From Agromyces mediolanus (GTDB lineage: Bacteria > Actinomycetota > Actinomycetes > Actinomycetales > Microbacteriaceae), in NCBI RefSeq assembly GCF_014648575.1, contig NZ_BMRJ01000001.1:232623-296622 (forward strand): a stretch of 64,000 bases of DNA, in the 5' to 3' direction. The position numbers were made by a program, and so were the translations under genes. Every line of letters begins with the position of its first letter. Position 1 is the stretch's first letter. The notes under the pieces were generated by a model that was not told where the DNA came from, searched no databases, and saw nothing but the letters and a program-made list of their open reading frames with translations. Positions 44,537 through 59,728 of this stretch are shown piece by piece.

Positions 44537-44596
44537 ATGCAGGTAAGTCTTGCGGATCTGCGCATCGAGCGCCCGAAGATCTTCACCCACGGCTGC
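44537..44596 (+). pseudogene. HxlR-family (YtfH-like) regulator, 5' fragment
   Basis: Twenty codons, MQVSLADLRIERPKIFTHGC, match the N-terminus of YtfH-like regulators up to the conserved Cys. The sequence then switches to transposon DNA and the frame stops at 44614. The remainder of the gene is not found in the window. Direct loss of function is expected. Confidence 0.75.
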
Positions 44597-44680
44597 TGTG
44601 AGGTCTCCGCTTAACTGGCAGCATCTCGAATTGTCCGGCAGCGGACGAATCTCGGCTGGCAGTAGAAATCCGGTTGGCAG
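44597..44680. repeat. left end of Tn7-like transposon with four TnsB-type sites
   Basis: Begins TGTGAGGTC directly after the hxlR Cys codon. TGGCAG/CGGCAG cores occur at 44616, 44636, 44657 and 44675, 18-21 bp apart, each preceded by an A/T-rich half. Regular overlapping 20-bp sites are the hallmark of Tn7-family ends. Confidence 0.7.
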
Positions 44681-44813
44681 CGACAGACCCCAGTGGCCAG
44701 GATCCAGCCGCCGTCGGTGTGCGCCGCTGTTGCGGCTGGGCCGGTCAACCCATCGTAGGTAGTCAGTGTTAGTCAGTAGGTAACGTCAGCCGCGCCCGGG
44801 TAACGTCCACACC
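44681..44813. other. spacer between transposon end and cargo gene
   Basis: Holds TAGTCAGTGTTAGTCAG and two GGTAACGTC copies 20 bp apart (44779 and 44799) just before the cargo start. The GGTAAC hexamer recurs in the 59007-59308 array. Confidence 0.5.
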
Positions 44814-46697
44814 GTGGAAAGCACGCCGGAAGAACTCGTTGCCGCGCTCGAACAGCACAACTGGCGTGCTGTCTTCGATCTCGATCCGATGGAGGCCTGG
44901 CGGCGTCTCGGGGAGCTCGCCGAACAGTTGCAAGATGAAGACCCGATCGCCTCCGAAGGTCTGCGCATCGTTCAGACGGTGAGTGGCATGATGCTCGACG
45001 GCGACAGCTGGGACATGCCGTATAAACCGCTCGCACAGTTCGAAGACTGGCGGTCCGCCCTTCCTTCAGACCTTGATGAGGGGCAGCTTCGATTCCTTCA
45101 CGAACTGGCGCCAACCCTCCCGGGTTCACAGCTCGCTGCACGAGTGAGCGATGTACTCCACCTCCGAACGACCAGCAGAACTGAGCGGATCGAACATGCT
45201 GCCCGCGCCGTGGAACTCTGGATTGCATCCGGGTTCACACGTGTGCTCGCAAGAAGCGAGGGCGAAGATTGGATACGCGCTGCAGAGATTGCCGCGCGCT
45301 ACCGCATGGCTGAATCGGCGGGGCGACTTACGGAGCAGGCGCTCGCTGTCCTTCGGTCCGATGACGATATTGCCGCCCTTCGGGCAGCCGGAGTGATGCG
45401 CCGGGCGAGGTACTTCGGCGAGCATGACGACGAAGTCGCGCTTCAGATGGAATCGAGAGGGCTGCGCTCCGCAGTGGCCCGCCGCCAGCGGACGTTCCTC
45501 GAAGAGGCGTTGCGCTGGGTCCGCGGCGGCGACGCAGCCGAGCGTCACGCGCGGCTACACGAGCTCATTGGCGACACGTGGTGGGATGAAGCGGTCAGCC
45601 GTGCAGAAGATTCGCATCTGGTGGCACGTGACTTCTTCGCCAACGCCTACAACACCTATCGGGCGATTCCCCGCAAGTTCCGAAGCGCCGCCGTGACAGA
45701 GCGCCTCAGCCGTCTTCCGGCGATTGTTCGCGAGCACGGCGAACAGGCGCTGGGCGAGTTCACATCTTTCGTCAGCGACCCAATTGACGTCAGCTCGATC
45801 CGTGAACTCGCGGAGTCGTTCGCTGCCGAGGAAATGCCGATCGACGCGTTGGCGAGTTGGTTCGTCAACTATGAGCTCGACGCATTCGAAACCGCCAAGA
45901 GCGATGCGGAGATGCTCATTCGCGAGCACCCACTGACACACATATTCGGTAGTTCGACCGTCGCGGCGGATGGGCGGAAACTGCACAGCTCGTCAAGTAG
46001 TCGCACGCATATGGGAGTTGAGAACGGTGTCTGGTCTCAGATGGTCAAGCACTTCCATCAGAGGATTGATCTCCTTGCTCAGAGTTACATCCGGCCGGGT
46101 CTCTGGAGCCTCAGTGCGGCCTTCCGTCTTTCGTTGGGCGACTTCAAATTGATGGTGAGCGCGTCACCGTTCGTGCCGCCGGAGGTCGAGAATCTGTACG
46201 CGCGGGGTCTGCACCACGGCTACTACGGGAGGTTTGCCGAAGCTGTTCACCTGTTGGCGCCCGTCACAGAAGCCTGCGTTCGTGCCGCGCTGCACCGGGA
46301 TGGAATAGAAACTCGCAACCTTCGTGTGGACGACACCGAGATCGAACCCGGTCTAAGTGCGTTGATGGAACTCGACGGGGCGGATGAGGCGCTCGGGTAC
46401 GACCTGGCATGGAACATGCGGGCGTTGTACTGCGGCCCGCTCGGACCGAACCTCCGTAACCGAGTAGCGCATGGGCTTGTCAGCGACGTTGAAGCAGCTG
46501 GCGCTGACGTGGTCTTCGCTTGGTGGCTCGCCCTTCGGTTGGCCTTCGTTCCCTACTTCAACATGGTTCGGGCAGAGGAGCACCGCAGCGAGCACGACTC
46601 GGGTGTGGGCCCGAAGCTGTGCGGTAAGGCCCGCGCGAACGGCCGCGGTACGTGTCAGCGCAGGGTGGGTGCGCGCGGGTGTCCCTTCCACGGGTAG
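44814..46697 (+). CDS. DUF4209-like protein, candidate HEPN effector
   Basis: 627 aa, GTG start without a clear ribosome-binding site. Mostly helical. The C-terminal part has GPNLRNRVAHGL, in which R548-N-x3-H553 fits the HEPN RNase motif R-x4-6-H and the DUF4209 family end. A 25-residue tail with CGKARANGRGTCQ and GCPFHG looks like a small Cys/His zinc knot. DUF4209 proteins occur in defence-rich islands. As the only gene between the transposon end and tniQ it is probably anti-phage cargo; this is inference. Lower GC than the host genes. Confidence 0.6.
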   Translation: MESTPEELVAALEQHNWRAVFDLDPMEAWRRLGELAEQLQDEDPIASEGLRIVQTVSGMMLDGDSWDMPYKPLAQFEDWRSALPSDLDEGQLRFLHELAPTLPGSQLAARVSDVLHLRTTSRTERIEHAARAVELWIASGFTRVLARSEGEDWIRAAEIAARYRMAESAGRLTEQALAVLRSDDDIAALRAAGVMRRARYFGEHDDEVALQMESRGLRSAVARRQRTFLEEALRWVRGGDAAERHARLHELIGDTWWDEAVSRAEDSHLVARDFFANAYNTYRAIPRKFRSAAVTERLSRLPAIVREHGEQALGEFTSFVSDPIDVSSIRELAESFAAEEMPIDALASWFVNYELDAFETAKSDAEMLIREHPLTHIFGSSTVAADGRKLHSSSSSRTHMGVENGVWSQMVKHFHQRIDLLAQSYIRPGLWSLSAAFRLSLGDFKLMVSASPFVPPEVENLYARGLHHGYYGRFAEAVHLLAPVTEACVRAALHRDGIETRNLRVDDTEIEPGLSALMELDGADEALGYDLAWNMRALYCGPLGPNLRNRVAHGLVSDVEAAGADVVFAWWLALRLAFVPYFNMVRAEEHRSEHDSGVGPKLCGKARANGRGTCQRRVGARGCPFHG

Positions 46698-46715
46698 CTT
46701 GCAGCAAGCGGCGGG

Positions 46716-48614
46716 TCAGCACTCTTTGCATCCGCGTTTCGCGCGCACACGAGTAGTTGTTTGTTCTGTATGCCCCTTCTGGCACAACCAATCGATCGGA
46801 ACGCTGAGGTTCATGACCTTGTTCGGCGGCAACGGGTTCGAGTCTGCCCAGTCGATCACTGTCTCCGGAAAGCGGGTGGCGAGGTCGTTGACGCCTTCGA
46901 CTAGGCGCTTGTTGTTGCAGACGCTGCAGCCGGTGCCGCGATGTACTCGGAATCGTGCGGACGCAGGGTAGGAATGACCTTTCGGGCAGACCCACCAGAG
47001 GACGCGGGCTGTTCCTGCATGGACTCGGTCCGGGGTGATCCCGTTCTTCTCGACGTCAAACTCCGGCACAAGGTGCGGCGCGACCTCCGCGATATCGTTC
47101 TTGCCAGGGATCGTATGTCGATTGGTGCACTTCCCGCAGCCGGCAGTTGTCATCTTCACTCGTACGATGACCGGGAGCTGGTACGCATGCCCTTCATCGC
47201 AGAGCCACCACATGGTTCTGGGCGAGGTGTGCTTGATCTGAGACGCGGACAGCGAGTTGCGGGTGGGGTGTAACCTCGGTGCGAGGTCTGGATGGGTGAC
47301 GTCTAGCGTGTTCACTCCTTCGTCGGCTGTCCGTCCGGTACAGATGCCGCACCGCCCTTGTGTCTGCTGCATCACCCAGATGGTGCGGCGGAACCGATGA
47401 CCGTTGTCGCACTTCCAGTGGTATTTGCGCGCACCGCCGCCGAGCGTCTCTGAGGGGTTGCACCCGTTTTCCGGCACGTCAAACCACTTCACGAACTGCG
47501 GGAAGAGCGTCGCTAGGTCGTTGACACCGATCACGAGCTCGCGCATCGAACAGACTCGGCAGTTGACGCGCTGGTTGCGATACGCGGTCATGACGGTTGC
47601 GCGGTGGGTTTGTCGGACGTGGCCGTTGCGGCAGATCACTTGCGCTGACCCGTTCACCGATGGAAGTTCTGACCGTGTGAGTCCAAGTTCTCCGTTGTGG
47701 TGGATGAACGCCGCGGTGTGGTCCGCGAGCGTCTCAACGGTGAAACCTACTGCTTTGAGGTAGCCCCCGAAATGCTGGAACGGACCCTGGATCTGGGACC
47801 ATGCGGTCGAGGCTGCTGTCACGTCCAAATCGTGCGCCCAGGCGCCCGCAGCAGCACTCCGGGTGGCTGCGCTGGCCGCGACAGGTCTGAGCAGCAGCGC
47901 CAGGTGTTGCGCGACAAGCTCGGCGTTTTCAGGTACACGGTGTTGGGTCTCGGTAAGCAGAAGTTCCCAGCGTCGTTCGAAGCTACGGAGCGGGTTGAAG
48001 TAGTCGGCGATGAACCACGGTGCGGTGATCAGACCGATCAGCCGGACAAGGACCGGGAACAGGAGATAGTCAGCATCGGAGTGTGAGCCTCGAGAGATTC
48101 TGCGGAGAATGTCTCGCACCTCCATGTGTAGCCGTGCGGAGATCCGATCTCGGGCGAGCAGACGCCGGTACTTCCGCTCAGCATTGACATGCGCGGGTGA
48201 AACAGACCGCTGCTCCGTTGCGGCGACGCCCGGGGCCGTCCATCGCCGGTGACGGAGGCACACGTTTCCGCCAAGGTGTGGTACTTGGGGGTACGGCTCC
48301 CCGTGAGCGCAGCGGGAGCATCCGACTCGGGACTCCAAACCCATGGTGCAGCAGGGGTGGCAAGAACCGTCCTGGTGTGCTCTGAGTTTCGCTTCCCAGT
48401 GGAATCGGGCAGACTCGACCAACCCCTTCTCCTGCACGTAGATCAGCAGCCGGGCGTCATCACCACCATCGTGTGAGTGCTGCAACCCTCGGAGGTACGC
48501 AGCAACATGGAGGTCCGACTCGCCGTTCGCTTGAGCCAGTCGTTGTGCGTAGCTCGCCGGCGTCTCCATGTTCAGGACACGGGGACGGGAAAGGTACGGG
48601 ATGGCGCCGATCAT
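46716..48614 (-). CDS. tniQ: TniQ-like target-selection protein fused to five zinc ribbons
   Basis: 632 aa. The N-terminus has ETPASYAQRLAQANG (TniQ start motif, residues 17-31) and a zinc knuckle at C85/C88, C99/C102, C119/H122. From residue 328 to the end there are five C-x3-GH..C-x2-C units (C328-C355, C402-C425, C472-C496, C543-C566, C611-C632), each with W-x-C-x3-GH and separated by GVNDLAT-like segments, matching the DUF4379 treble-clef zinc ribbon. ATGA overlap with tnsC. TniQ/TnsD proteins choose the insertion site; the ribbon array is probably the DNA-reading module in place of the usual TnsD C-terminus. Confidence 0.82.
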   Translation of the reverse strand: MIGAIPYLSRPRVLNMETPASYAQRLAQANGESDLHVAAYLRGLQHSHDGGDDARLLIYVQEKGLVESARFHWEAKLRAHQDGSCHPCCTMGLESRVGCSRCAHGEPYPQVPHLGGNVCLRHRRWTAPGVAATEQRSVSPAHVNAERKYRRLLARDRISARLHMEVRDILRRISRGSHSDADYLLFPVLVRLIGLITAPWFIADYFNPLRSFERRWELLLTETQHRVPENAELVAQHLALLLRPVAASAATRSAAAGAWAHDLDVTAASTAWSQIQGPFQHFGGYLKAVGFTVETLADHTAAFIHHNGELGLTRSELPSVNGSAQVICRNGHVRQTHRATVMTAYRNQRVNCRVCSMRELVIGVNDLATLFPQFVKWFDVPENGCNPSETLGGGARKYHWKCDNGHRFRRTIWVMQQTQGRCGICTGRTADEGVNTLDVTHPDLAPRLHPTRNSLSASQIKHTSPRTMWWLCDEGHAYQLPVIVRVKMTTAGCGKCTNRHTIPGKNDIAEVAPHLVPEFDVEKNGITPDRVHAGTARVLWWVCPKGHSYPASARFRVHRGTGCSVCNNKRLVEGVNDLATRFPETVIDWADSNPLPPNKVMNLSVPIDWLCQKGHTEQTTTRVRAKRGCKEC

Positions 48615-49651
48615 GCTACTGCCGTGACCCGTTTCATCAGATCGACCGCCGCCATGCTCGGCTGCAGCGCCAATACGTCTTCGATCCGGATAGTCTCGGG
48701 CGCCTCCGCACCGCGCTGGCGAATCTGCCGCGTCGCTGCCATCCGCATCAGCCGCACCAAGTCCCCGATTGATCCTCCGCTGTGTCGGTGGAGCTCCTGG
48801 GCGTGTCGACGGAGCGAGCCCACTTTGTGGTCGAACAGCGGAAGTTCACGCTCGACTGCTGAGATGAGCTCCTTCCAGAGCTCCTTCTCGGTCGGGGTCG
48901 TGTATCGGTACCGTTCGACACGGTGGGTCTGCACCCTGCCGCGAATCTGGGTCGCGAAGTCACCGCTGAACGCTTCGCCTGGCGTGATCTCGGCGCTCAG
49001 GTACAGGAACGTGACTCCCGCCGCTTGGTTGTGCAGGTCCTTCAGGAAAGACAACGACTGGCGGCCGAACCGGTCCCGAGGTGAGAGGTGCTGCAACTCG
49101 TCGATCACGATCAGCTTCGTGCGGGCTTTCGCGATCGTGGCGCAGATTCGGGTGGTAAGCGAGTTCAGCGTCTCCTTCGAGCGAACGGTCAATCCGTAGA
49201 ACTCAGCGATCCTCGTCGCGAGCGCGACAGCTCCGGACTCTGAAGGGATGAGCACGTAGGCGACGGGCACACGTCCGTCGGCGAGCCAACCTGGATGCCG
49301 TCGCACTTCTTGCAAGTGCACAGTTCGCATTGCGATCAGGGCTGCGGTTGTCTTCCCGAGGGTGCCCGGCCCTGAGACGTGGAGGCCTGCATGCCCCGAG
49401 CTGAGGCCCGCGTTCTCATACAGCAAGTCTTGGACCGTCTCGATAATCCGACCAACCTCGGGGGTCTGGATGACGAACCCGGTGTTCATGTGAAGGAGGC
49501 GCCGTTCGTCGTATCGGTTCCGGTCGGTCTTGCTCATTGACCGATAGGCGTCGCGACTCTCTCGCGGAAACTCCTCAAGCGGCCGACCGAGGAACTCGGT
49601 CAGCCCATCCCATCGGGTGAGCGGTCGGTTCGGGGTTTCAGGGGGCAGCAT
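48611..49651 (-). CDS. tnsC: TnsC/TniB-like AAA+ transposition regulator
   Basis: 346 aa. Walker A GPGTLGKTT (94-102), Walker B KLIVIDELQHL (D184, E185) and a sensor-like LYLSAEIT. It would bridge TniQ at the target and the transposase. Walker A is slightly unusual, with Leu between the Thr and Gly. Start overlaps the tnsB stop (TGATG). Confidence 0.88.
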   Translation of the reverse strand: MLPPETPNRPLTRWDGLTEFLGRPLEEFPRESRDAYRSMSKTDRNRYDERRLLHMNTGFVIQTPEVGRIIETVQDLLYENAGLSSGHAGLHVSGPGTLGKTTAALIAMRTVHLQEVRRHPGWLADGRVPVAYVLIPSESGAVALATRIAEFYGLTVRSKETLNSLTTRICATIAKARTKLIVIDELQHLSPRDRFGRQSLSFLKDLHNQAAGVTFLYLSAEITPGEAFSGDFATQIRGRVQTHRVERYRYTTPTEKELWKELISAVERELPLFDHKVGSLRRHAQELHRHSGGSIGDLVRLMRMAATRQIRQRGAEAPETIRIEDVLALQPSMAAVDLMKRVTAVA

Positions 49652-51648
49652 CAGTCTTCCTCCTCGTCCACAATGAACCGGACTGACTGCATCGCAACGA
49701 CCGACTCCGGTTCTGTCTCGGCTTCCGGCAGGGCGGGCACGGGTGGTGGTGCGTACGGTCCGCGGAGTTGCTCCTTCGCAGCCAGCCGGCGTGCGGCCGC
49801 TACGCGTGGGGTGGCGTACCGCAGGTCGTCCCCACTCCGCGCGAGAATCGCGGCTTCGTCCGCACTGACCGCCTCGCGATGATCGTCTGCCCTTGCAGCG
49901 CGCGCCGCTCGATACCGGTCGGAGCTGTCGATGGCGAACGGCAGGCTGAAGACGTGCTCATCGCGGCGGAGGCATTCGACGGGAGCGTCATGACCGGGAA
50001 GCCAGACCCAGATGCGGCTCGGATCGTACGGATGGTAGTGGTACCGGTAGCCTCCGTTCTCAGGTCCCGGAACCAGTCGGAACTGGTTGAGGGTGGGAGA
50101 GTCGTAGCTGATGTTCGCGTGACGCATTCCGGTCTTTTGGATTGAGACGGTCTTTGTCGGCAGGCCGTAGATGAAGTCGAGCTGGGAGATCGGCACCGGG
50201 ATGCAGGCGCTCAGGTCCCACATGGCGGTGTACGCCTCAAGCGGTGTCAGCTTCACATTTGGGAAGTACGGGTCGTGGAGCCCGTCGAGCGGGGTGTTGT
50301 GCCACACACGGGTGACCCAGTCGTCGAACAGTTCATTGAGCGCGTCGAGAGTCAGGAGAGGCTTCTTCTCGAGCGCGTGCCCCCGCCGGTCGACCGACCC
50401 GCCGGTGAAACCGGCGAGATGCGCGGCGAACTTGGTTGAGATGGTTCCCCAGTACCGTTCGATGTGCGGTTTGTCGGTCGCGGTCCTGGACCGCGCCCGG
50501 TTGATCCGGATCCCGAACCGCGCGCATACCGCGGCGAACTCCGGCGCGAGGTAGTCCTTCCCGTTGTCGGTTGTGATCGCGGTCGGGACGATATACGGCC
50601 TAGTCAGATCGAGCTGTGCGCGCTCGTTAGCCGGGATGTGTTCCGCCCATCGAAGCTGGGGCCCGAGTTTGGCCCAAGCATCATCTCGCCCCGGTTGAAG
50701 TTCGCGTGGGGTGAGCGCGCGAAGCAGCACGAACGCGTGGTCCGAACCCTTGGTGCCCCCGAGGCGGAACGCGCTGCCCGCGATGCACCCTGTTGCAACG
50801 TCGAATAGGACTGTGAGCAGCGGGCGTACGGGGTTTCCGTCATCGTCAAGGCAGATCACATCGAACGTCGTCGTGTCCATTTCGCAGAGCTGCCCAGGAC
50901 GCAGGACCCGCGTCTTTCGGTACGTCGAGTCCGGCTTTCCAGCGTTGGTGCGTCGATTCTTCGCGTTCCCGGTGGTGTACGCACCCTTGGTCAGGTAGGC
51001 GAGGTGCCGGTGAAAGGAAGACCGTGCCGGGACGGGGACGGCTTGACCTGGGTGCTTATCCAGCAGGCGACGCTTGACCCTCGCGAGGAGTACCGGGGCG
51101 GGCAACGTGGACTCCTGCGTCTGCTCTGCGATGACGAGCTTCAGCTCTTCGACGTACCGGGGATCTGCCCGGTCGAGGGGCAACTCGTCACGGGTCTTTG
51201 TCTCTACGAGCGCGGGTAGACCACCGTTCTCGTAGGCGTCCTTCAGTCGCCAAAGGTTGCGCTCGGAGAATCCCTTGAGATTGGCGTTTCTAAGCTCAGC
51301 CGCTTTGCGCTTGATTCGGGTTGAGAGCGAGCTGTCCTCTGGGTCGTACTCATCACGAGGCGGGTCTTGTTCGCGGAGCGGTGTCCCATGGAGCACTTCG
51401 AGTAGGTGCTTTTCGATGAACCGCGCCCTCTCCTTGGCGTCGTTGTCGAGGGCCGACCACGCCGGAAGCTCGGTGAGCACAGGCGAGGGGGGTGTAGCGA
51501 GTCGTTCCCCCAGTTCCCTCAGGGCTAGCAGCAGATAGTCCCCGCTCGTTACGTTCCGAAGCTTCAGCCGCGCGAAGTCGTATGCGTCGACGACGTAATC
51601 TCCGTCGTCCAGCTCGACGACGGAGCCGACACGGATGGCCGCGGTCAA
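49651..51648 (-). CDS. tnsB: TnsB/TniA-like DDE transposase
   Basis: 665 aa from a TTG that overlaps the tnsA stop (TTGA), with GAGGTG 6 bases upstream. Helix-turn-helix regions occupy about residues 100-240. The rve core has D258 (CEMDTTTFD), D361 (ITTDNGKDY) and E397 (KPHIERYW). A Mu-transposase-type beta barrel follows, and an acidic tail (VDEEED) that would contact TnsC. It cuts the 3' ends and joins them to the target. Confidence 0.9.
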   Translation of the reverse strand: MTAAIRVGSVVELDDGDYVVDAYDFARLKLRNVTSGDYLLLALRELGERLATPPSPVLTELPAWSALDNDAKERARFIEKHLLEVLHGTPLREQDPPRDEYDPEDSSLSTRIKRKAAELRNANLKGFSERNLWRLKDAYENGGLPALVETKTRDELPLDRADPRYVEELKLVIAEQTQESTLPAPVLLARVKRRLLDKHPGQAVPVPARSSFHRHLAYLTKGAYTTGNAKNRRTNAGKPDSTYRKTRVLRPGQLCEMDTTTFDVICLDDDGNPVRPLLTVLFDVATGCIAGSAFRLGGTKGSDHAFVLLRALTPRELQPGRDDAWAKLGPQLRWAEHIPANERAQLDLTRPYIVPTAITTDNGKDYLAPEFAAVCARFGIRINRARSRTATDKPHIERYWGTISTKFAAHLAGFTGGSVDRRGHALEKKPLLTLDALNELFDDWVTRVWHNTPLDGLHDPYFPNVKLTPLEAYTAMWDLSACIPVPISQLDFIYGLPTKTVSIQKTGMRHANISYDSPTLNQFRLVPGPENGGYRYHYHPYDPSRIWVWLPGHDAPVECLRRDEHVFSLPFAIDSSDRYRAARAARADDHREAVSADEAAILARSGDDLRYATPRVAAARRLAAKEQLRGPYAPPPVPALPEAETEPESVVAMQSVRFIVDEEED

Positions 51649-52535
51649 CGGGCACCTCGGGAGGGGTGGACGGGGTTCAACGGTGCGGGGTTAGTCATGG
51701 CGGGGTTAGTCCAAACAACGGTTTCGAGGGACATCGGGGAGCTGAGGTCTAGCTGCAGGTCTTGGTCCCACAGCATCCGAAAGACATGTGGCGAACTGAG
51801 CGGTGCGGCGTTTTCCAGTACGTCCCCCAAGCGGGCCCCGCGGCCGACGATGCCGAAGACGGTGGAGCGCACCTCTTTCGGAGGAGTCAGATCCGGACGT
51901 CGGAACGCCGAAAGCCACTCCAGGTTGGTCTCAGCAGCTCCGGGCAGGCCGGTGTAGATCTCGTAGTCCCACCCCAGAGTCGCGGCGGCCTTCGCCGTCG
52001 CGTCAGAGACTGCCGCGAAGCCGCTGAGAGCAGCCGGCCACTTCGCGTCGATCAGGGTCCGGCCCCCGTCGGGACGCGTGACCAGGATGTCGGGGATGTG
52101 CGTGGTGCTGTCCTCGAACGTCAGCTGCAATGGCTGAGGGAGCAGATCGGCGACCATCCCTCGGTACTCGGCGTACAGCATCGCTCGGGACTCGAGCAGG
52201 GACTCATGCCAGTGATGGCGGCCCGTCGCCGCAGACCAGTACAGCCCCTGCATCGCTCGGGAGCTCGGGCCGTTGTAGCTCTTACGAAGCTGCTGCGCAC
52301 CCGACATCGCCATCGCGCCCGTCTCACGGGATATGACGTGGTTGTGCCGGCGTCCGCTGAGGTCGATCCATGAAATCCCCGCAACGCCGGGAGTGATGAC
52401 ATTGGGGAGGCGGGTCCGTGTCGTTGGTTTGTAGCTCACACCTTGAGGTATGTGGCGGACCTGGCGCGCGGCCCGTCGGCGGCGATCCCGTGAGGTCGCC
52501 CGCTGTGGACTGTGTAGCTGAACGATTGCGTCCAT
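51645..52535 (-). CDS. tnsA: TnsA-like endonuclease
   Basis: 296 aa. The TnsA nuclease triad is visible as HESLLES (E111/E115), HIPDILV (D149) and LIDAKW (D163-x-K165). A basic N-terminus precedes it and a longer, weakly conserved C-terminal domain follows. TnsA cuts the 5' strands so that the element moves by cut-and-paste rather than by cointegrate. First gene of the coupled tns operon. Confidence 0.88.
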   Translation of the reverse strand: MDAIVQLHSPQRATSRDRRRRAARQVRHIPQGVSYKPTTRTRLPNVITPGVAGISWIDLSGRRHNHVISRETGAMAMSGAQQLRKSYNGPSSRAMQGLYWSAATGRHHWHESLLESRAMLYAEYRGMVADLLPQPLQLTFEDSTTHIPDILVTRPDGGRTLIDAKWPAALSGFAAVSDATAKAAATLGWDYEIYTGLPGAAETNLEWLSAFRRPDLTPPKEVRSTVFGIVGRGARLGDVLENAAPLSSPHVFRMLWDQDLQLDLSSPMSLETVVWTNPAMTNPAPLNPVHPSRGAR

Positions 52536-52855
52536 GTCGTCACCGAGTGGTTAATGTAATAACACATGGGGTGGCTGTAGTCGAGTGTTAGGCGGGTGTT
52601 CGCCGTTGTATTCGGTGGGTGCTGAAAGCCGAGAACTGGTTCGCGACAGTCGGCTCGGAGTTAGTCAGCGCAGTTGACGGACTGGCAGGCCCACTTTGGG
52701 GCTAACGCACAGCTCAAGGTGTGGGATGCGCCGCCCCCGTCGCGCCAGCAGGTGCGCCGCGAACGCGGGTCGGAGTCACCGCGACCCCGAAGTGGGGTGT
52801 TGTTGCCTTGAACCGCCGAAAGTAGCGTCCTCATCATCTCGTCGAAGGAGGCGCA
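52536..52855. other. intergenic region upstream of tnsA, possible transposon right end
   Basis: No gene. It has an AT-richer patch TTAATGTAATAACACATG at 52550-52567 (tnsA promoter side), GTTAGTCAG as in the left end, a TGGCAG at 52683, and the ACA at 52709-52711 discussed for the element boundary. No regular CTGCCA sites as expected for an inverted end. Confidence 0.4.
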
Positions 52856-53179
52856 GTGGCCTGGAGGATCTCGGCTGGCAAGACGCAGGGGCCGGAGTAC
52901 AGTTGGTGGTTGTACGCGGGCAATGGTGAGCAGGTCGCCTGGGCGGGTGAGACGTTCCCAAGCCAGCACAACGCGGGCCGCGCTGCCGCGGCTTTCAAGA
53001 TTGGCTCAGCGACCGCGCGTTACGAGGTATTCGCTGACGCTGCTGGGGAGTATCGATGGCGAGCATGGCGCGGGAGCGAGAAGGTTGCGGCTTCTGGCGA
53101 GGCGTTTGCGAGCAAGTACAACGCGGAGCGAGCTGCCGAGACGGTCCGGTTGAACGCATGGGCAGCCGAAGGGCCCTGA
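52856..53179 (+). CDS. DUF1508 (YegP-like) protein
   Basis: 107 aa, GTG with AAGGAG 5 bases upstream. Two tandem DUF1508 copies: residues 1-48 (WWLYAGNGEQVAWAGETF) and 51-99 (YRWRAWRGSEKVAASGEAF), both ending in SxxNAxRAAxxx-type helices. Small beta-beta-alpha protein, function not known. Confidence 0.8.
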   Translation: MAWRISAGKTQGPEYSWWLYAGNGEQVAWAGETFPSQHNAGRAAAAFKIGSATARYEVFADAAGEYRWRAWRGSEKVAASGEAFASKYNAERAAETVRLNAWAAEGP

Positions 53180-53261
53180 TCTCTTGCGCACTGCTCGGTG
53201 GTACGTCGTCGGCGAGCGTCGCTACGTGCTCGGGGTAGAGGAGTGAAGGTACTCTCTCAAT

Positions 53262-53555
53262 ATGGCGAGGACGGTGCGTGCGAGCCCGGCTGAGTTGGTT
53301 GATGGTTGGCCGGATGGGGTGCCGTCTGATCCGATCGCTCGTGTGGCGCAGCAGTTCGCCTTGAATTTGCGGGAGGCGGTCGGTGATCGTTCACTTCGCG
53401 CTGTCGCGGATCTCGCGGGCGTGCATCATGTGACCCTGTTGGCGATCTTGGCGGGCCGGACCTGGCCTGACATGTCGACGATCAGCAAGCTGGAGCGCGG
53501 TTTGGGTCAGAGCCTGTGGCCGGCAGGTGTGAGCATCGAGGGTCTTGACCGCTGA
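53262..53555 (+). CDS. small helix-turn-helix protein
   Basis: 97 aa; residues 35-88 look like an XRE HTH (LREAVGDRSLRAVADLAGVHHVTLLAILAGRTWPDMSTISKLERGLG). Probably a DNA-binding regulator. Its 3' end overlaps the tail-to-tail gene at 53482 by 74 bp. Confidence 0.65.
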   Translation: MARTVRASPAELVDGWPDGVPSDPIARVAQQFALNLREAVGDRSLRAVADLAGVHHVTLLAILAGRTWPDMSTISKLERGLGQSLWPAGVSIEGLDR

Positions 53556-53844
53556 CGCCGGGGGACCTGAGGGCCGCTACGAGCTCGTCCGTCAGGATCG
53601 ATTTCCTGAGGATCGGCGCATCAAGCGGGACGGTGCGCGCCGGTTTCAGTTCAACGTTGAGCTCGAGTGCATCGAGCACCGCAAGCAGTATCCGTCCGTT
53701 GACGTCGCGGGCACCATTTTCGATCCGCGAGATGAGTTGGCGGGTGGTGCCTGCTTGCGCAGCGAGCTCGCTTTGGGTGATGCCTCGGCTGCGCCGTCGT
53801 TGACGGACGACTGGGCCGATGTCTTCGAGGGTGCGGACGAGCAC
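53482..53844 (-). CDS. XRE-family regulator, HipB-like
   Basis: 120 aa, GTG start 3 bp after the upstream stop. VVRQRRRSRGITQSELAAQAGTTRQLISRIENG is a textbook HTH_3; LDALELNVELKP continues as in HipB antitoxins. A HipA toxin gene is missing. The last 40 residues overlap the opposite gene and may be read-through sequence. Confidence 0.75.
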   Translation of the reverse strand: MLVRTLEDIGPVVRQRRRSRGITQSELAAQAGTTRQLISRIENGARDVNGRILLAVLDALELNVELKPARTVPLDAPILRKSILTDELVAALRSPGVSGQDPRCSHLPATGSDPNRAPAC

Positions 53845-53847
53845 TGG

Positions 53848-54480
53848 TCAGCTTTGGTTGAGACGTTCGGCTTGCATCATGAGTTGGGTGGCGTCTGGGC
53901 CGGCGACGGTGATGGAGCGCCACCATCGGCGGAGGGCGACCCGATCCCCATTCGTAATGGCGTCGGAGAGTTCGGTTGCGCTGACGATGTCGATGTGCGG
54001 TTGTCGGCCGACCATCGGCGGGACGACTGATCTGTAGATGCGGGCGACCTCTGCAGCGTCCGCGGAGTGGTCCGGTTCGTGGATGAGCAGCACGCCGATC
54101 TTGGTCGGGTCTGGCTGTGCGTAGACGGCGACGGTGAGATCGCTTCCGGCTTCTTCGGCGAGGCGCCTCATTCTGTTGAGCGCTGCCTGGCGGGCGTCGA
54201 GGGCTTCTCGGAGCGTGCCGGCCAGCATGTTGCCGTCGTTGATTAGGTAGTGCGTGCCGCGCTCGATCACCAGGCCCGCATTCACTAGGCGGCGGAGTGC
54301 GCGCTTGACCTTCCGTTTGGATAGATCGACATGTCTTGCGGCGTTCGCTTCGGTGATCGGTTCGTAGTCGCGGACCGTGCGGAGCGTGGCGGCGAGTGCC
54401 GGGCCCATGAGTTCCGCGACTGGGTCACTGAGGATCGTGTCGAGTGACCATCGGGGTGTCGTTCTCACCGGTTCCTCCAT
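53848..54480 (-). CDS. winged-helix regulator
   Basis: 210 aa. Residues 40-85 form a winged helix (EANAARHVDLSKRKVKRALRRLVNAGLVIERGTHYLI), then a helical NDGNMLAGTLREALDARQAALNRMRRL. The C-terminal part (LTVAVYAQPDPTKIGVLLIHEPD) resembles a nucleotidyltransferase-like fold but without a clear GSxxxG, so it may be sensory. It forms an operon with the HipB-like gene and has a paralogue at 58362. Divergent from 54549. Confidence 0.65.
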   Translation of the reverse strand: MEEPVRTTPRWSLDTILSDPVAELMGPALAATLRTVRDYEPITEANAARHVDLSKRKVKRALRRLVNAGLVIERGTHYLINDGNMLAGTLREALDARQAALNRMRRLAEEAGSDLTVAVYAQPDPTKIGVLLIHEPDHSADAAEVARIYRSVVPPMVGRQPHIDIVSATELSDAITNGDRVALRRWWRSITVAGPDATQLMMQAERLNQS

Positions 54481-54548
54481 TGCCTCTGGCGGTTGTGCGC
54501 CGCACCGCGTATCCTGTGCTGATTATATTCACCATTGGAGGTGAGTGT

Positions 54549-55529
54549 GTGAACGAGAGCTCCAGGCTCAGCGACGCGGCGCTCATCGGTGTCGTCGGTG
54601 CGCTGAACGACCGATGGGGTGCCTTGTCCCAGGTTCTTGACACCATGGCGACCCGTCGCGTCCGAACCGTCTACCAACTGGGTGGCCTGTTCGACGAGAT
54701 CGCCGAGACCCCGGCTGAGTTGGACAGGACGCTCGCCCGGAATCGTCAAGCCGTGCGGATGGTGAGCCGGGTTGGCGGCGACACTGGAGTCCGCGCCCGG
54801 GTTACAGGCTCTGCCGGTGAACTGATGGGGGAGACCGCACATGCGACAGTGCTCGGACGTGCCGACCGGGACCAGCTGTTTGGCGGGCACAGTGTGGCCT
54901 CGATGTCGGGAGACGGTCGGCGCACCGATTTCGCATCCTCCGCCGAGATCCTCCAGGGGACTGGCTCAAGCCCGGCCGACGTGGTGCTCACCGATCTCGT
55001 GCCGGCGTTGATCCTCCGTGGGAGAGGAGCGCCGGCGGTGAACCGTCGTCAGGCGTTGCTGCGTCTTCGGCCCTGGGCGTTCGTCGGTCCCTCCCCGAGG
55101 TTCGTCGTCCGAGACGAATCGTTCCGCCCGCCGCACGGCGAGCCCTTCACCACCACGTGCATCGAGCTCCCCCGCGTCCCGGACGTCGCGGTGATCGTCG
55201 ATCTCAGGAAGAAGTCGATCGAGTACATCGACAACCGCGGCACACGGATACCGGTGAACCGCGACGACCCGCCGCTCGAGCTGGCAGCGGGCGGACGATG
55301 GCTGGTCACCGCGGCGAACGGGCGATGGCGCCTAGACCTTGACCGGATGACCGTCGAACAGATGGCAGGCGACCCGACCAAACCGTGGGGAAATCGAACA
55401 CTGGTTGAGCTGCAAACCATCCGGATTGGAGAACAGGCTGTGCTGACGATCGCCGCACGCGACGGGAGCTACACGATGACCGAGAACCTCGGGCAGGTCG
55501 CAGCCATCCAACCGTGGGAGCGGGACTGA
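54549..55529 (+). CDS. unknown protein, accessory region
   Basis: 326 aa from a GTG with GGAGGT 6 bases upstream. Helical N-terminal 90 residues, Gly/Ala-rich middle, then a beta-rich C-terminal half (VAVIVDLRKKSIEYIDNRG, RWLVTAANGRWRLDLDR). No recognised motif, no membrane segment. Translationally coupled (TGATG) to the next gene, so the two products probably act together. Confidence 0.6.
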   Translation: MNESSRLSDAALIGVVGALNDRWGALSQVLDTMATRRVRTVYQLGGLFDEIAETPAELDRTLARNRQAVRMVSRVGGDTGVRARVTGSAGELMGETAHATVLGRADRDQLFGGHSVASMSGDGRRTDFASSAEILQGTGSSPADVVLTDLVPALILRGRGAPAVNRRQALLRLRPWAFVGPSPRFVVRDESFRPPHGEPFTTTCIELPRVPDVAVIVDLRKKSIEYIDNRGTRIPVNRDDPPLELAAGGRWLVTAANGRWRLDLDRMTVEQMAGDPTKPWGNRTLVELQTIRIGEQAVLTIAARDGSYTMTENLGQVAAIQPWERD

Positions 55530-55834
55530 TGTTCGGCGACCTGATCACGCTCGACGGCGTCACGGACGGTACGTACAGGATCGAGACCATCTCCGGCTCC
55601 GTGTACCTCCTGGATCTGAACCGTCGAGTCTTCACACGGACCCCGCTCGACGACCCCGAACTGACCCTCCGCCGCGACCGCAAAGAAGTCCGCCTCCTCG
55701 AGCTGGTCGATTGCACCATCGGGCGGAGGATGCTGCTGATTATCGACCTTCGAGTGGACGACGTCCTCTACACGACCAGGGACACCACGCCTGTCGTTGC
55801 AATCCACAAGCTCGCGGACGGCGAGACGGACTAG
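55529..55834 (+). CDS. unknown small beta-rich protein
   Basis: 101 aa. Starts FGDLITLDGVTDGTYRIETI, a KOW/SH3-like strand pattern, with charged LRRDRKEVRLLELVD in the middle. No family recognised. Coupled to 54549. Confidence 0.55.
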   Translation: MFGDLITLDGVTDGTYRIETISGSVYLLDLNRRVFTRTPLDDPELTLRRDRKEVRLLELVDCTIGRRMLLIIDLRVDDVLYTTRDTTPVVAIHKLADGETD

Positions 55835-56119
55835 CGGCGAGGCGCCGCATCGTTGGTTGCGCGCCAGCCGGCGGGGAGCGCATACGGGAGCTCGTCCGGC
55901 CTGGCTGCGCCTTCGGCGCCGGAGCGGCCGGTAGGCCGCAGCGAGCGGAGGGTTCGGTCAGCCGCGGTTCTCCAGAGCTGATTGGGCTCCGCGTGGTTCG
56001 AGTTCGGTGCCGGGCGTTAGGGGTGTACCTCGTTTTGGGGGGTGCGCGTTGCGTCGAAACAGGCCGGGTGCCGCGCATGTATATTTCGGGCCGGAAATCA
56101 ACTCGGCGAACACTGTTCC
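55835..56119. other. non-coding stretch before the hairpin repeats
   Basis: No ORF with coding character. A possible -10 TATATT (56080-56085) lies 35 bp before the first 33-bp repeat and could start a small RNA. Confidence 0.4.
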
Positions 56120-56219
56120 TTCCCCGCGTCAGCGGGGGTGACCCAGAGCCAACCGGAGCACTAGACCAGACGGTCGAAAGCACTAGTTCCCCGCGTCAGC
56201 GGGGGTGACCCAGAGCCAA
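56120..56219 (+). CRISPR. two 33-bp direct repeats with type I-E-like core (minimal CRISPR-like array)
   Basis: Identical copies at 56120-56152 and 56187-56219, start-to-start 67 bp. The core TCCCCGCGTCAGCGGGGG folds into a 7-bp-stem hairpin. The second copy, read from AGTT, aligns closely to the E. coli I-E repeat (AGTTCCCCGCGCCAGCGGGG). Against a classical array: only two copies, a 34-base spacer rather than 32, CTAGACC shared 8 bases after each copy, and no cas genes. It may be an orphan mini-array or a duplicated RNA hairpin. Confidence 0.45.
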
Positions 56220-56264
56220 GCAAAGGCCTAGACCCACCTGCGGCAGTATCAGTTCAAGCAGTAT

Positions 56265-56293
56265 GAGGGGCGGAGCAAGTAGCTCCGCCCCTC
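56265..56293. terminator. intrinsic terminator-like hairpin after the repeat pair
   Basis: GAGGGGCGGAGC, loop AAGTA, GCTCCGCCCCTC: a perfect 12-bp stem followed by TTC. It lies 46 bp after the second repeat and also just beyond the stop of a possible minus-strand small ORF. Confidence 0.65.
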
Positions 56294-56324
56294 TTCGCAT
56301 CCCCACTCTTGCTCGTGAACAGCT

Positions 56325-56438
56325 TCAGGGGCGGAACGTCGACCAGCCGCTGCTTCGAACCTCTCCGAGGATGCCAGGCATCTGCCAGCCCGCGCTTTCG
56401 ATCCTTGTCGTCAACTCGGCAAGCCAAGGGATCACCAT
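56325..56438 (-). CDS. possible small ORF or gene remnant
   Basis: 37 codons, starting MVIPWLAELTTRIESAGWQM, ATG without a clear ribosome-binding site. Protein-like composition (Trp, Ile, Glu) unlike the Arg/Pro-rich shadows around it. Divergent from the ATPase gene. Could be the end of a decayed gene. Confidence 0.25.
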   Translation of the reverse strand: MVIPWLAELTTRIESAGWQMPGILGEVRSSGWSTFRP

Positions 56439-56504
56439 GGGGCGGCGCTACGCCGGGCCGGTACTGCACCAAATACAGTGGCAACTGACATTGCAGGAGG
56501 TCCG

Positions 56505-57833
56505 GTGCCCAGAGAAGTCGTTTCCGTCGACGAGGTGTTCCCCGTAGCCGGCGATCCTCGCTACACGTATAAGCGACGGGTAGCGCTCGAAGATGAGGTG
56601 AAGCAGTACGCGGCTCATGGCAGCGGCGTTCTCTTAGTGCACGGCCCGACGAAGACAGGTAAGTCGGTGCTTGTGCAGCGACAGCTGAAAGAAGCGGTGT
56701 ACGTCCGGGGTGACTTGGCGACGGCCGCCGAGCTTTGGGAAGCCGCAACCACGAAGCTGAACCTGTTCACCACGCGGTCACGTGAAGATTCGACGGCGAC
56801 GAGCGCGAAGCTCACGCTCGGGGCGCGCATCAAGCTCGCAGTCGCGGGGTTCAAGGGCGAGGTCGGCTATGAGGCCACCAAGGGCGAGAAGGCCGGTCGC
56901 AGCGCTTCCGACAATCCCCAAGTGCTCGTCGCTGACCGCTTGATTCAGACGCGCGGTGTTCTCATCATCGACGACCTGCACCTGATGCCTCGTGATGAAC
57001 AGCGGAAAGTCATGACGACCGTAAAGGGCATCACGGATGGCGGCGGCCGAGTTGTTGTCGTAATGGCGGGCTACCGGGTGCAGTACCTTGCGACTCTGGT
57101 GCCCAACCTCGGGGGACGCATTGCGCAGCTCGAGGTGGAGCTTTGGAGTGTGGATGATCTGGTCGCGATCGCGAAGCTTGGGTTCGACAAGCTCGCGGTG
57201 ACCGATCCGGAGGGCACGCTTGCTCGCGAGCTCGCTGAGAACAGTCTCGGAAGTCCGCAACTTATGCAGCGCCTTTGCGCTTCACTTGTTCGTGATGCGA
57301 ACGGAATCCGTTCACGCACCATGACCAAGCACACCCAGCCGGTCGAATTGAAGGCGCCCGATGACTGGGCCACCTTCTACGGTCACACCTTGTCGAAGGT
57401 ACTGCTCGAGGTGCAGTGGTTGCTTGAGCTCCGTCGCGGCCCTGTGGAACGCCGTCCTCGGAATACTCACTCCACGCGAGGCCATGACGGGCGGGTCGAG
57501 CAGCAGGACGGCTACGAGCTCATCATTCGTGCGCTTGGAACGCTCGTCCCGAACGTGAACCCGACGCGTGATCAGATCCATGCCGAAGTGACGCGGAGCA
57601 TCATCGGCCATCCCAGGCCAACTCCGCAGACGACCGGGAGCAAACTTAAGTACCTGAGCCGCATTGCGTCCGCGCCCTTGCATGCCGCACTCGACGAAGA
57701 AGGTCTAGACCGAATGGGTGGAGACGAGGCCGACCATGACCCGGTGCTCGAGTATCAGGAAGTCGGGGCGAACGCAGTTCTCCGGATCACTGATCCGTTG
57801 TTCGCGTTCACGCTGAAGTGGTGGCGGGATTAG
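56505..57833 (+). CDS. AAA/STAND-like ATPase, accessory region
   Basis: 442 aa, GTG 4 bases after AGGAGG (an in-frame GTG at 56478 is less likely). VLLVHGPTKTGKSVLV is Walker A near residue 50; GVLIIDDLHLMPRDEQ is Walker B. Between them a Gly/Lys-rich insert (KLTLGARIKLAVAGFKGEV). The C-terminal 150 residues are helical with no enzyme motif. It may be a TnsC-like or defence NTPase; I cannot decide. Lower GC than the host. Confidence 0.65.
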   Translation: MPREVVSVDEVFPVAGDPRYTYKRRVALEDEVKQYAAHGSGVLLVHGPTKTGKSVLVQRQLKEAVYVRGDLATAAELWEAATTKLNLFTTRSREDSTATSAKLTLGARIKLAVAGFKGEVGYEATKGEKAGRSASDNPQVLVADRLIQTRGVLIIDDLHLMPRDEQRKVMTTVKGITDGGGRVVVVMAGYRVQYLATLVPNLGGRIAQLEVELWSVDDLVAIAKLGFDKLAVTDPEGTLARELAENSLGSPQLMQRLCASLVRDANGIRSRTMTKHTQPVELKAPDDWATFYGHTLSKVLLEVQWLLELRRGPVERRPRNTHSTRGHDGRVEQQDGYELIIRALGTLVPNVNPTRDQIHAEVTRSIIGHPRPTPQTTGSKLKYLSRIASAPLHAALDEEGLDRMGGDEADHDPVLEYQEVGANAVLRITDPLFAFTLKWWRD

Positions 57834-58361
57834 GCTTTGCGAGCGGCCGCAAGTGTACCGCGAGCGGCGCAACGTGCCGGTCTGGGTGAGGTGACATGGC
57901 TGCAGCTTGAGGTCTGTGATCCGTGGTCCACGACAGAGCCGCGGCTGCAGCGCCGGGAGCCGTTGTCCCGCTCACGGCGGCCGGTCCTTGGCGAGCAGTC
58001 GTCCCTCGAGCGCTTCGGCGCCGGCGGCCGGGCCACAAGGCCGTCCTGGCGACCGTGCACTCGTTTTGCCAGGGCTCTCTCGTGGCCGTCCGCATGCGCA
58101 GCACCTTCACGTGGTTCGTCGCCCCCGTGACCCTCGTCGGTGTCCCGTGTAGCAACTCGGAGACATTTCGGTCGTAGCGACGATCAGCCGAGAACCGCGC
58201 TGCGGCCGATATGTTTGCCCCACACGACGGCACACTGGGGCCCCGGGCCGATTGAAGCCGCCCAGGGGGCGCAGGCCGTTACTCGCTTGAGCGACTCTCG
58301 GCCGGGCTGGGGCTGGTCACATCGGCAGGTCGAACTGAGTGAAAGCGTGTGGCCGGGACGG
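57834..58361. other. 528-bp stretch without a recognisable gene
   Basis: Only Arg/Ala-rich frames of shadow type on both strands. No repeat or hairpin stood out. Confidence 0.5.
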
Positions 58362-58832
58362 TCAGCATGAGGGTACTCGTGTGGTGCAAGTCACGTCGAT
58401 GTCCTGGCCAGTCCACGCTCTCCAGTTCCGCTTGGTATTGGCGGTTGCTGTCGCAGTTTTGTGCGCGCGCTCGGTAGGGGCGGTTAGGTGGATCGTTCGG
58501 TCTTTCAGCTCCGCTTCCCAGCCGTGCTTCATGAGCGCTCGGAGCCGGCGTTCGAGTTCCGTTGTCGCGTCCGCGATCTGGCGGAGGGGGCCGGCCATTA
58601 CGTGGTCTTGGTTGAGGGTGAATGTGTTGTGGCGGCCGGTGCCGTGCTGGATGACAAGGCCCAGGCCGCTGAGTTTCTTGAGGGCAGTGTGAATGGTTTT
58701 GCGGTCGAGTTGTAGCTCGGCGGCGAGTTGTGTCGGCCGGAGATGAGAGTCGGGTGCGTCGAGAAAGAGTTCATACACCCGGGCGGGGGTTCGTGAGAGC
58801 AGGCTGCTGAGAGGCGCGGCGGGATCGAACAT
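58362..58832 (-). CDS. winged-helix regulator, autoregulated
   Basis: 156 aa. Winged helix at residues 15-70 (LRPTQLAAELQLDRKTIHTALKKLSGLGLVIQHG) and a helical QDHVMAGPLRQIADATTELERRLRALM. This repeats the layout of 53848-54480 (GLVI..GT, then a MAG..LR helix), so they are paralogues. The C-terminal 45 residues are Thr/Arg-rich. ATG at 58832 chosen because upstream DNA holds four operators that an earlier start would translate. Confidence 0.7.
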   Translation of the reverse strand: MFDPAAPLSSLLSRTPARVYELFLDAPDSHLRPTQLAAELQLDRKTIHTALKKLSGLGLVIQHGTGRHNTFTLNQDHVMAGPLRQIADATTELERRLRALMKHGWEAELKDRTIHLTAPTERAHKTATATANTKRNWRAWTGQDIDVTCTTRVPSC

Positions 58833-58856
58833 CGTGCGAACGAGCCTAGCAATCTC

Positions 58857-58986
58857 GTGGTAGTTTCCACCACGGCAGTCGTGGCAATTTCTCCCACGAG
58901 GGTTGGCGCTTCGTGGTGGTTTCTGCCACCGGGCTATCAAATAGCCTCTGATCAGGATTGTTTCAAATCGTGGTAGTTTCTGCCAC
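58857..58986. promoter_or_regulatory. four operators GTGG-N3-TTTC-N2-CCAC
   Basis: 17-bp sites at 58857-58873, 58881-58897, 58913-58929 and 58970-58986, centres 24, 32 and 57 bp apart. Each is an inverted GTGG/CCAC pair around a constant TTTC. The first lies 25 bp before the winged-helix start. Confidence 0.75.
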
Positions 58987-59006
58987 AATAGTTCGGTCTG
59001 CCCTCA

Positions 59007-59308
59007 GTTACCCCAGTTACCCCGGGTTACCCGGTCCGGGTAACCGCCAACTCCCGCGGAATCACTGGGCTCCTGTAGTAGTAAGTAGTAGTAGTTACCC
59101 AGTTACCCAATAGATAGATAGTTAAGAGAGAACCAAGGGGTGTGCTCTCGCAAACACCCCTACCCTCCCCTGCCTATATGCATGTACCCCCCAAAATCGG
59201 GTAACCGGGTAACCGGAGGCCTAAACCCCAGGTCAGGACTCATAAAAACGGTTACCAACGGGTGGTAACTGCTTGGTAGGCAGGTAACTCCCCGAAGTTC
59301 CAGGTAAC
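59007..59308. repeat. array of twelve GTTACC/GGTAAC boxes
   Basis: GTTACC at 59007, 59016, 59026, 59094, 59102 and 59251; GGTAAC at 59039, 59200, 59208, 59264, 59283 and 59303. Locally AT-richer, with TAGTAGTAAGTAGTAGTAG and TAGATAGATAG in between. Iteron-like; could be a replication origin or a dense operator cluster. Confidence 0.7.
59136..59161. terminator. hairpin AGGGGTGT..ACACCCCT inside the box array
   Basis: Perfect 8-bp arms around a 10-base loop. May end transcripts entering from either side or be part of an origin structure. Confidence 0.45.
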
Positions 59309-59392
59309 GGCGGATTTCTTGCCAGGCCTGGGAATTAATCTCCTCGGCGGCGGTTGCATCCTGTGAAGCCCGCACAACCGAAGGGAGATTTC

Positions 59393-59674
59393 GTGGCTGA
59401 GACAGTGGTCCTCGCGCCTCGCGGCATCCACCCGGATGTGCCCGAGCGCGGCGGTCGCCCGCGAGAGCGGGCGCTGCGTCATCGAAACACCCAGCCTTCT
59501 GCCATCAGTGTTCGATCCCCCCGCCCCGATTCCGGGGGTAGAGCCGCGGCGTCAATCGCAATCGCCGGGGGCTGGAAACCTCAGACCCATCACCGTGCTG
59601 CGAGCGCCCCCGGCTCCCCGGTCTCGGACAATCCGGCACCACGTCCGTCGAAAAACTCCGAGTGCCGCGCATGA
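59393..59674 (+). CDS. possible small protein gene downstream of the box array
   Basis: 93 codons, GTG after AAGGGAGA. N-terminus VAETVVLAPRGIHPDVPERG, remainder Pro/Arg/Ser-rich. No family seen. Could be a leader or a decayed gene. Confidence 0.3.
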   Translation: MAETVVLAPRGIHPDVPERGGRPRERALRHRNTQPSAISVRSPRPDSGGRAAASIAIAGGWKPQTHHRAASAPGSPVSDNPAPRPSKNSECRA

Positions 59675-59728
59675 CTCCGTCCGAGTCCAGCATCTGCTGG
59701 GGCGCACCGGCTTTCGGAGGAGAATCCT

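Follow-up and report, generated by a model that had tools for sequence, protein, structure and literature searches.

A TniQ-type protein with a DUF4379 array as the putative target selector of a Tn7-like transposon in Agromyces mediolanus

A 64,000-nt stretch of the Agromyces mediolanus genome (GCF_014648575.1, NZ_BMRJ01000001.1, forward-strand positions 232,623-296,622) contains part of a Tn7-like transposon whose tnsA-tnsB-tnsC-tniQ operon ends with a gene for a 632-aa protein (46716..48614, minus strand). This stretch is called the window, and positions refer to it unless given as genome coordinates with the prefix C1. We consider it probable, at roughly 0.6, that this protein is the TniQ/TnsD-type target selector of an intact transposon, in which an array of DUF4379 units replaces the helix-turn-helix (HTH) array of TnsD as the putative DNA reader. 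Target choice by Tn7-like elements is known to proceed through TnsD HTH arrays, TnsE, TnsF, and CRISPR effectors. The protein belongs to a real variant of the Tn7-like target selector that recurs among relatives, and its array is a plausible, putative DNA reader. We infer the reading of target DNA by this array from its analogy with the TnsD C-terminus and from the occurrence of DUF4379 on DNA enzymes.

The 632-aa protein and its family

The C-terminal half of the protein contains five C-x3-H...C-x2-C modules, beginning at residues 328, 402, 472, 543, and 611. This agrees with an earlier sequence-only reading, which had described five C-x3-GH..C-x2-C ribbons of DUF4379 type. The Pfam family DUF4379 (PF14311) matches in four stretches with E 1.9e-24 and a score of 86.1 bits (cut-off 24.5). 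When the residues were shuffled 1000 times and modules counted under a somewhat more permissive pattern (C-x2-4-H...C-x2-C), the mean was 0.09 modules and the maximum 2. A ribbon model of the family resolves one partial and four full units with a period of 70-71 aa, all encoded on the minus strand. Unit 1 is a C-terminal half unit (residues 322-355; 47550..47651; 5.1 bits). It is followed by unit 2 (residues 367-425; 47340..47516; 52.8 bits), unit 3 (437-496; 47127..47306; 59.1 bits), unit 4 (508-566; 46917..47093; 67.3 bits), and unit 5 (578-632; 46719..46883; 29.8 bits). The last unit terminates in ...GCKEC, and its final Cys pair forms the C-terminal end of the protein. The earlier count of five therefore holds with the first unit being only half a unit and four being full, whereas the ribbon fold does not, since in Pfam the domain is given as probably a treble clef and not a zinc ribbon; the word ribbon is used below as a label. 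AlphaFold models the array confidently (predicted local distance difference test, pLDDT, of 74-96 in 10-residue blocks over residues 351-590). The model aligns with chain 9hny_Fd (Z 10.1, root-mean-square deviation 4.5, 83 aligned), which shares its sequence entry with 6sga_Fd, the latter named DUF4379 domain-containing.

Relatives were collected at three taxonomic levels. The family-level search matched 22 of 398 genomes, 14 of which were kept (18 genes, E below 1e-10); eight weak genomes (E 3e-5 to 7e-4) were dropped, and so were two additional weak matches, in G060 and G332. At order level, 12 of 396 genomes matched, some of them the same as at family level; G649, G718, G812, and G495 were added, and the weak G579 and G761 were dropped, as likewise were G004 and G054. 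The genus search matched 4 of 60 genomes, namely the own genome, G043 (taken from here), G057, and G021, whose match (E 6e-4) was rejected as spurious because it overlaps another gene in L042. G461, represented by the 3.7-kb contig L108, contributed no protein. The final set comprises 27 proteins from 19 genomes: 17 proteins (14 genomes) carry 2-7 ribbon units and 10 (6 genomes) carry none, with both kinds present in G313.

Residues 1 to about 321 (47652..48614, minus strand) correspond to a TniQ-type core, as judged from the 27-protein alignment, homology to ribbonless TniQ proteins, and hhalign. Eight positions are invariant in all 27 members (E17, R25, C99, C102, G105, C119, H122, and A145), and the E, the CxxC, and the CxxH are likewise invariant in the curated TniQ alignment. 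The protein displays the E..S[YW]..RL-type N-terminal motif of the TniQ family and its CxxC...CxxH zinc finger (residues 99-122; 48249..48320, minus strand). This finger is retained in 27/27 proteins. E. coli TnsD shows the same pattern, and its CCCH finger, formed by C124, C127, C152, and H155, is required for DNA binding (PMC2918618).

The own core is directly homologous to ribbonless proteins (G188, 4.5e-13; G057, 4.1e-10; G718b, 2e-9; G812a, 3.2e-4). All ten ribbonless relatives match Pfam TniQ (PF06527) at E up to 1, with 10.9 to 27.1 bits, and only G812a (27.1 bits) exceeds the cut-off of 27. Aligned by hhalign with seven curated TniQ domains, the family profile reached 76.9% probability (E 2.1e-5, 39 columns). 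Against the PDB at E up to 10, the profile returned three matches, all TniQ (0.048, 0.056, and 0.24). These are CRISPR-associated Tn7-like TniQ proteins (7n6i, 8rdu, 8fcu), matched weakly through the N-terminal TniQ motif; they are short and Cas-guided, unlike the large protein described here. The PADLOC TniQ model matches the protein weakly over residues 10-124 (E 0.12).

Several results argue against this assignment. Pfam TniQ finds no match in the whole 632-aa protein at E up to 10. With the threshold at E up to 1, it finds none in the first 330 residues of this protein and none in the 16 other ribbon-bearing proteins scanned whole. When the first 330 residues of each member were scanned, 13 of 27 matched (best 7e-6), at most about three of which can be ribbon-bearing. 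The TniQ assignment hence rests on the relatives, because the own protein lacks a Pfam TniQ match. The earlier claim of a TniQ-type N-terminus stands through homology and the invariant motif; a literal PF06527 match in residues 1-330 is absent, while homologous ribbonless proteins do match. AlphaFold models the N-terminus too uncertainly for a comparison with the TniQ fold (Hel1, ZF, Hel2). Modeled alone, the N-terminus has a mean pLDDT of 36, and the full model stays below 50 over residues 1-20, 34-138, 198-231, and 233-349. TniQ chains were absent from the fold-search matches, which is uninformative given the low confidence of the N-terminal model. By homology, then, the N-terminal half is a TniQ-type core, even though the protein itself misses the Pfam cut-off.

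The transposon and its insertion point

The tniQ-type gene reads uninterrupted from its ATG through the stop and is the last gene of the operon, its start codon lying inside the tnsC stop (overlap ATGA). Upstream on the same minus strand, tnsC (48611..49651; AAA+/TniB) matches the Pfam families AAA_22 (2.9e-12) and TniB (2.1e-10), both above cut-off. The DDE transposase gene tnsB (49651..51648) matches an IS481-type NCBIfam model at 2.1e-13, under its cut-off, with rve and Mu-transpos_C likewise under cut-off, and has a homologue in 21 of 22 loci. tnsA (51645..52535) scores 115.5 bits with NF033179 (TnsA_like_Actin; cut-off 110). The tnsA, tnsB, and tnsC operon that marks a Tn7-like transposon is thus present. 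Reading of 22 loci (the own locus, L040, L041, L077-L090, L104-L107, and L108) placed homologues of all three genes beside the TniQ-type gene in 21 of them (the own plus 20). The 22nd, L108, gave a tnsC match only. The tnsB of L086 and the tnsC of L107 are each split over two frames, and the second operon of L105 is truncated by the end of the stretch.

The element measures 24,604 bp (C1:277219-301822), with both junctions read. Its part within the window spans 44597..64000 (plus strand) and continues to genome position C1:301822. Both termini carry 9-bp inverted ends TGTGAGGTC of the TGT...ACA type, and GGCAG repeats follow in register at +21 and +41 at both ends. The left end (44597..44700, plus strand), which begins with TGTGAGGTC, carries further copies at +62 and +80; four GGCAG per 100 bp occur in 3 of 5516 sampled element windows, the end itself included. 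A 5-bp target-site duplication (TSD), GCTGC, flanks the element, its left copy at 44592..44596 (plus strand) and its right copy at C1:301823-301827, outside the window; the gene in L004 has a single copy. The interrupted gene, which by eye and recall we take to encode an HxlR-type regulator, is whole in G033 (L004). According to the comparison with sister genomes, its 5' part lies at 44537..44596 (plus strand), and the remainder continues from C1:301819 or 301823 onward. The left flank is conserved up to 44596, where alignments stop exactly in 7 of 9 relatives; the other two stop 34-40 bp earlier. A TSD with terminal inverted repeats (TIRs) is by itself non-significant in this GC-rich DNA, with 24 such pairs at the locus and 4-13 per shuffle. 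The ends were accepted because sister genomes carry the uninterrupted gene, the TSD and TIR alone being unconvincing. The transposon is intact and delimited at both ends, and the Tn7-like context proposed from the letters alone was borne out by the operon, the two ends, and the GCTGC duplication.

Insertion sites were compared with those of related elements. A de novo end search based on TSD and inverted repeats, run on 16 relatives and then with the own element, was convincing only for the ribbonless G188, for which both ends are defined by TSD/TIR only (12-bp TIR, TSD CGGTG). Empty-site searches found no junction in G065 or G043, whereas G332 and G060 each yielded a partial one. One side of the G332 insertion was confined to the interval that separates tniQ from an acyltransferase-type gene, and in G060 one side was likewise narrowed. 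The own element is the only ribbon element delimited at both ends. A G332 end candidate with its left end inside an intact acyltransferase-type gene was attributed to chance. G332 and G423 both have in their neighbourhood a gene that by eye is of the 2-oxoacid dehydrogenase E2 type; a common site there was discarded, as another gene separates it from the G423 element. FBP-domain-type genes (by eye) near the own element (C1:302950) and the G060 element (L082:6030-6800) lie on opposite sides, in 2 of 22 contexts; this proximity is perhaps due to chance and was not counted.

Array function and alternative explanations

TniQ/TnsD recruits TnsC, which then calls TnsA/TnsB (PMC2918618, PMC10293859), and the extended C-terminus of TnsD is needed for binding of att DNA. 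By analogy, the TniQ core described here would dock on TnsC, and the DUF4379 array would grip DNA beside the future insertion point in place of the TnsD HTH array. TnsC would subsequently call TnsA/TnsB to the site, leading to insertion with a 5-bp duplication. E. coli Tn7 TnsD resembles the present protein in its TniQ-type core, CxxC...CxxH finger, long C-terminal extension, and TnsABC partners (PMC2918618, PMC10293859). It differs in that its extension is reported to consist of multiple HTH domains in place of a DUF4379 array, and in that TnsD has a known, conserved att site, whereas no site shared between elements was found here.

In Tn7, TnsD binds on one side of the point of insertion, at +23 to +58 (PMC2918618). 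Carried over to the present element and its tnsA side, this rule predicts contact with the segment of the HxlR-type gene that adjoins the right end. Over +23..+58 on this side, conservation among ten sequences is 0.953, the 93rd percentile of 36-bp windows in the aligned 1.5 kb, and the mirror side ranks at the 37th percentile. This is suggestive of the predicted site, a choice made after the fact.

Some observations weigh against the array being a target reader. The insertion disrupts a coding gene and does not occupy a safe site, and the conservation at +23..+58 reaches only the 85th percentile when the reference is the gene together with the sequence after it. No two elements share a site among those resolved (own, G188, G332, and G060). 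Three arrays lack a positive net charge: that of G147b is neutral, and those of G147c (-6) and G649a (-5) are negative. Finally, the solved DUF4379 chains that were matched belong to trypanosome mitoribosomes or their assembly intermediates, so that binding of RNA or protein is documented for this domain no less than binding of DNA. The site comparison is itself indecisive, because only one ribbon element is delimited at both ends and identity between the whole proteins compared does not exceed 51%. Ribbon proteins stand with tnsABC across the family loci; common insertion sites, on which the sequence-only reading had made its proposal depend, were not found among the few sites resolved.

One alternative is that the array is a non-specific grip, with many sites and little sequence choice, whose ribbons would only increase affinity for DNA or for a DNA state such as plasmid, replicating, or bent DNA. 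Insertion in a coding gene without safe-site logic, the lack of a common site among the ribbon elements compared, and a mildly positive net array charge in 14 of 17 ribbon proteins (+11 in the own array) are all compatible with it. Comparison of the units argues otherwise. Within the closest clade, of seven, units at the same index are 0.44 identical versus 0.30 at different indices, a position-specific identity that exceeds what a generic grip would need, and unit number stays within 4-5. We regard a non-specific grip as unlikely, though not negligible.

The greater likeness of same-index units in this clade points to divergence in place and not to shuffling. Among 69 full units compared over 70 aligned columns, a W, a C, a GH, an R, and two further C residues are fixed, and many columns are variable. 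Units of G043 and G313c are more uniform (mean identity 0.42 and 0.39), the pattern expected if units had been duplicated inside the array. The suggestion that the array is evolvable is therefore upheld as regards unit number, which differs from 0 to 7, but not as regards shuffling, as units are collinear in the closest clade. A side observation concerns L040:10104-10300, where an extra ribbon unit lies out of frame past the G043 stop, as if unit number were decaying.

An extended form of target reading would treat the array as modular: each ~70-aa unit would contact a few successive bases; the transposon would be retargeted whenever units are gained, lost, or exchanged; and DUF4379 nucleases would use the same code. 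We consider this doubtful. If true, such a code would do with protein alone, and in reprogrammable form, what CRISPR guidance does for Tn7. The range of 0 to 7 units among relatives makes the function of the array directly testable.

A further alternative assigns the array to binding of protein or RNA, for instance a host factor of the nucleoid or of replication, or some target associated with RNA, with the target reached via a partner, as for short TniQ proteins with Cas effectors or TnsF. The mitoribosomal DUF4379 proteins and the action of TniQ through partner selectors described by Faure et al. (PMC10293859) speak in its favor. That paper ties partner selectors to small TniQ proteins without a large extension, whereas the protein here is large. 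An Rfam search of 44000-64000 at E up to 1 returned no family match, which still leaves room for an undescribed RNA. The company kept by other DUF4379 arrays, namely nuclease-type stretches and a helicase-methyltransferase, also stands against partner binding, which we judge improbable. Nine other DUF4379 proteins were scanned. Five show weak nuclease-type matches (Vsr/DUF559/MTES_1575/DUF2726), all under Pfam cut-offs, one is a ResIII helicase with a methyltransferase partner, and three have no such partner. On a Rhodococcus plasmid, a DUF559 gene lies directly behind a DUF4379 array. The presence of these arrays on Vsr-like nucleases and on a helicase-methyltransferase fits DNA recognition. 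A TniQ core coupled to a repeat array that is also seen on proteins of nuclease and helicase-methyltransferase type would add another independent solution to target choice.

Phage group II introns offer a parallel on the nuclease side. PMC12350094 reports that distant relatives of the DUF4379, CapR, and DUF723 domains precede a Vsr-type homing endonuclease, and takes the CapR-like domain to be likely DNA-binding and to add DNA specificity. As in the present array, three to five domains of about 60 aa stand in a row; the partner there is a nuclease and not a transposition core.

The last alternative is that the ribbons were fused by chance, or have decayed, and do nothing for transposition; the ribbonless sister lineage with the same operon speaks for it. 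Against it stand the regularity of the units in 17 proteins from 14 genomes and the separation of ribbon from ribbonless elements on the TnsB tree. On that tree (22 rows), the ribbon label changes 2 times against a shuffled mean of 6.2, and 0 of 500 shuffles were as low. Such a fusion is very improbable. In 41% of the bootstrap trees the label changes once, so ribbons may have been either gained or lost, and several rows, the own included, sit on long branches of unsure place.

Among described selectors, TnsF of Tn6022 is alike in placing zinc fingers in a target selector, with one reported TniQ fusion to the TnsF N-terminal region (PMC10293859). Apart from that fusion, TnsF stands as a protein of its own that has XerH-like domains, and its zinc fingers match a LIM-type domain by HHpred. 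The same source, in its available part, describes target choice via HTH extensions, TnsE, and TnsF and does not mention DUF4379. The Actinobacteria-dominated clade 2 of Tn7-like transposons defined by Benler et al. (2021, PMC8649781) is perhaps of the same kind as the own element; in the part of that paper available, no member is experimentally characterized and ribbon arrays are unmentioned. In a literature search outside subscription journals, DUF4379 occurred in three papers. None of the 25 matches listed for TniQ with DUF4379 contained the latter, and no paper paired TniQ with zinc-ribbon or TnsD with treble clef.

Cargo, accessory genes, and wider occurrence

The tniQ-type gene is bordered by a DUF7380+DUF4209 cargo gene (44814..46697, plus strand), identified by Pfam and PADLOC, which assigns it to the candidate defence system PDC-S39 (8.5e-134). 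Two accessory genes of 361 aa and 106 aa, called as open reading frames (ORFs), lie at 54444..55834 (plus strand), and by single linkage the 106-aa gene has relatives close to tnsA in five further elements. Further cargo includes an ATPase gene (56478..57833, plus strand) matching the PADLOC candidate defence system PDC-S59 (6.2e-26). The protein scan placed a redox enzyme, an SBF-family transporter, an ArsR-type regulator, and LMWPc (arsenate-reductase-type) proteins at 60100..63904 (plus strand); an E1-E2 ATPase is also among the cargo. No cas effector was named among the 21 element proteins scanned, a subset of the ORFs. The sole cas-related matches in these were a weak Csa3/WYL-type HTH at 53848-54480 (E 4e-4) and the TniQ model.

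A CRISPR-like palindromic 33-nt repeat, TTCCCCGCGTCAGCGGGGGTGACCCAGAGCCAA, occurs at 56120-56234 in two copies 67 nt apart (56120/56187). Its similarity extends to 48 nt at 90% and may reflect a plain 67-nt duplication. The 22-nt core has one other exact match, in viral contigs. The metal-resistance-type cargo by the right end (L034, C1:288000-303500) includes 4.7 kb that is 94.5% identical to L082:15300-20000. The matching segment adjoins the G060 tns operon, and no further DNA match links both loci, suggesting cargo exchange.

Outside the collected genomes, a scan of viral contigs matched nothing. A plasmid tblastn search gave 60 records, and among the matches listed (40 of 60) only H35, from Nocardia, aligned on the TniQ side. 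No annotated tns gene was present in the H35 stretch or in five other plasmid regions, for which the gene table is incomplete. A single genome-contig scan gave 14 loci, all aligned from residue 243 or later and thus in the ribbon half. The helicase-methyltransferase with a DUF4379 array is found in L020, where it carries six stretches; L023 was judged alike from its length and ends only.

Architectural variants were also noted within the family. G147 (L078) and G649 (L104) each have two TniQ-ribbon genes at the locus. In G649a the ribbons are followed by a match to the winged-helix-type HTH_20 that stays below cut-off (24.1 of 27 bits), which would make the extension a ribbon/HTH hybrid. The ribbonless elements in L105, L106, and L085 contain two short TniQ genes in tandem. 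Lastly, a companion gene stands beside tnsA in seven loci (L078, L080, L081, L084, L087, L088, and L090). The copies scanned (L087 and L088) match the helicase-associated HA domain (PF03457) above cut-off, and its product could be a further DNA-binding accessory.

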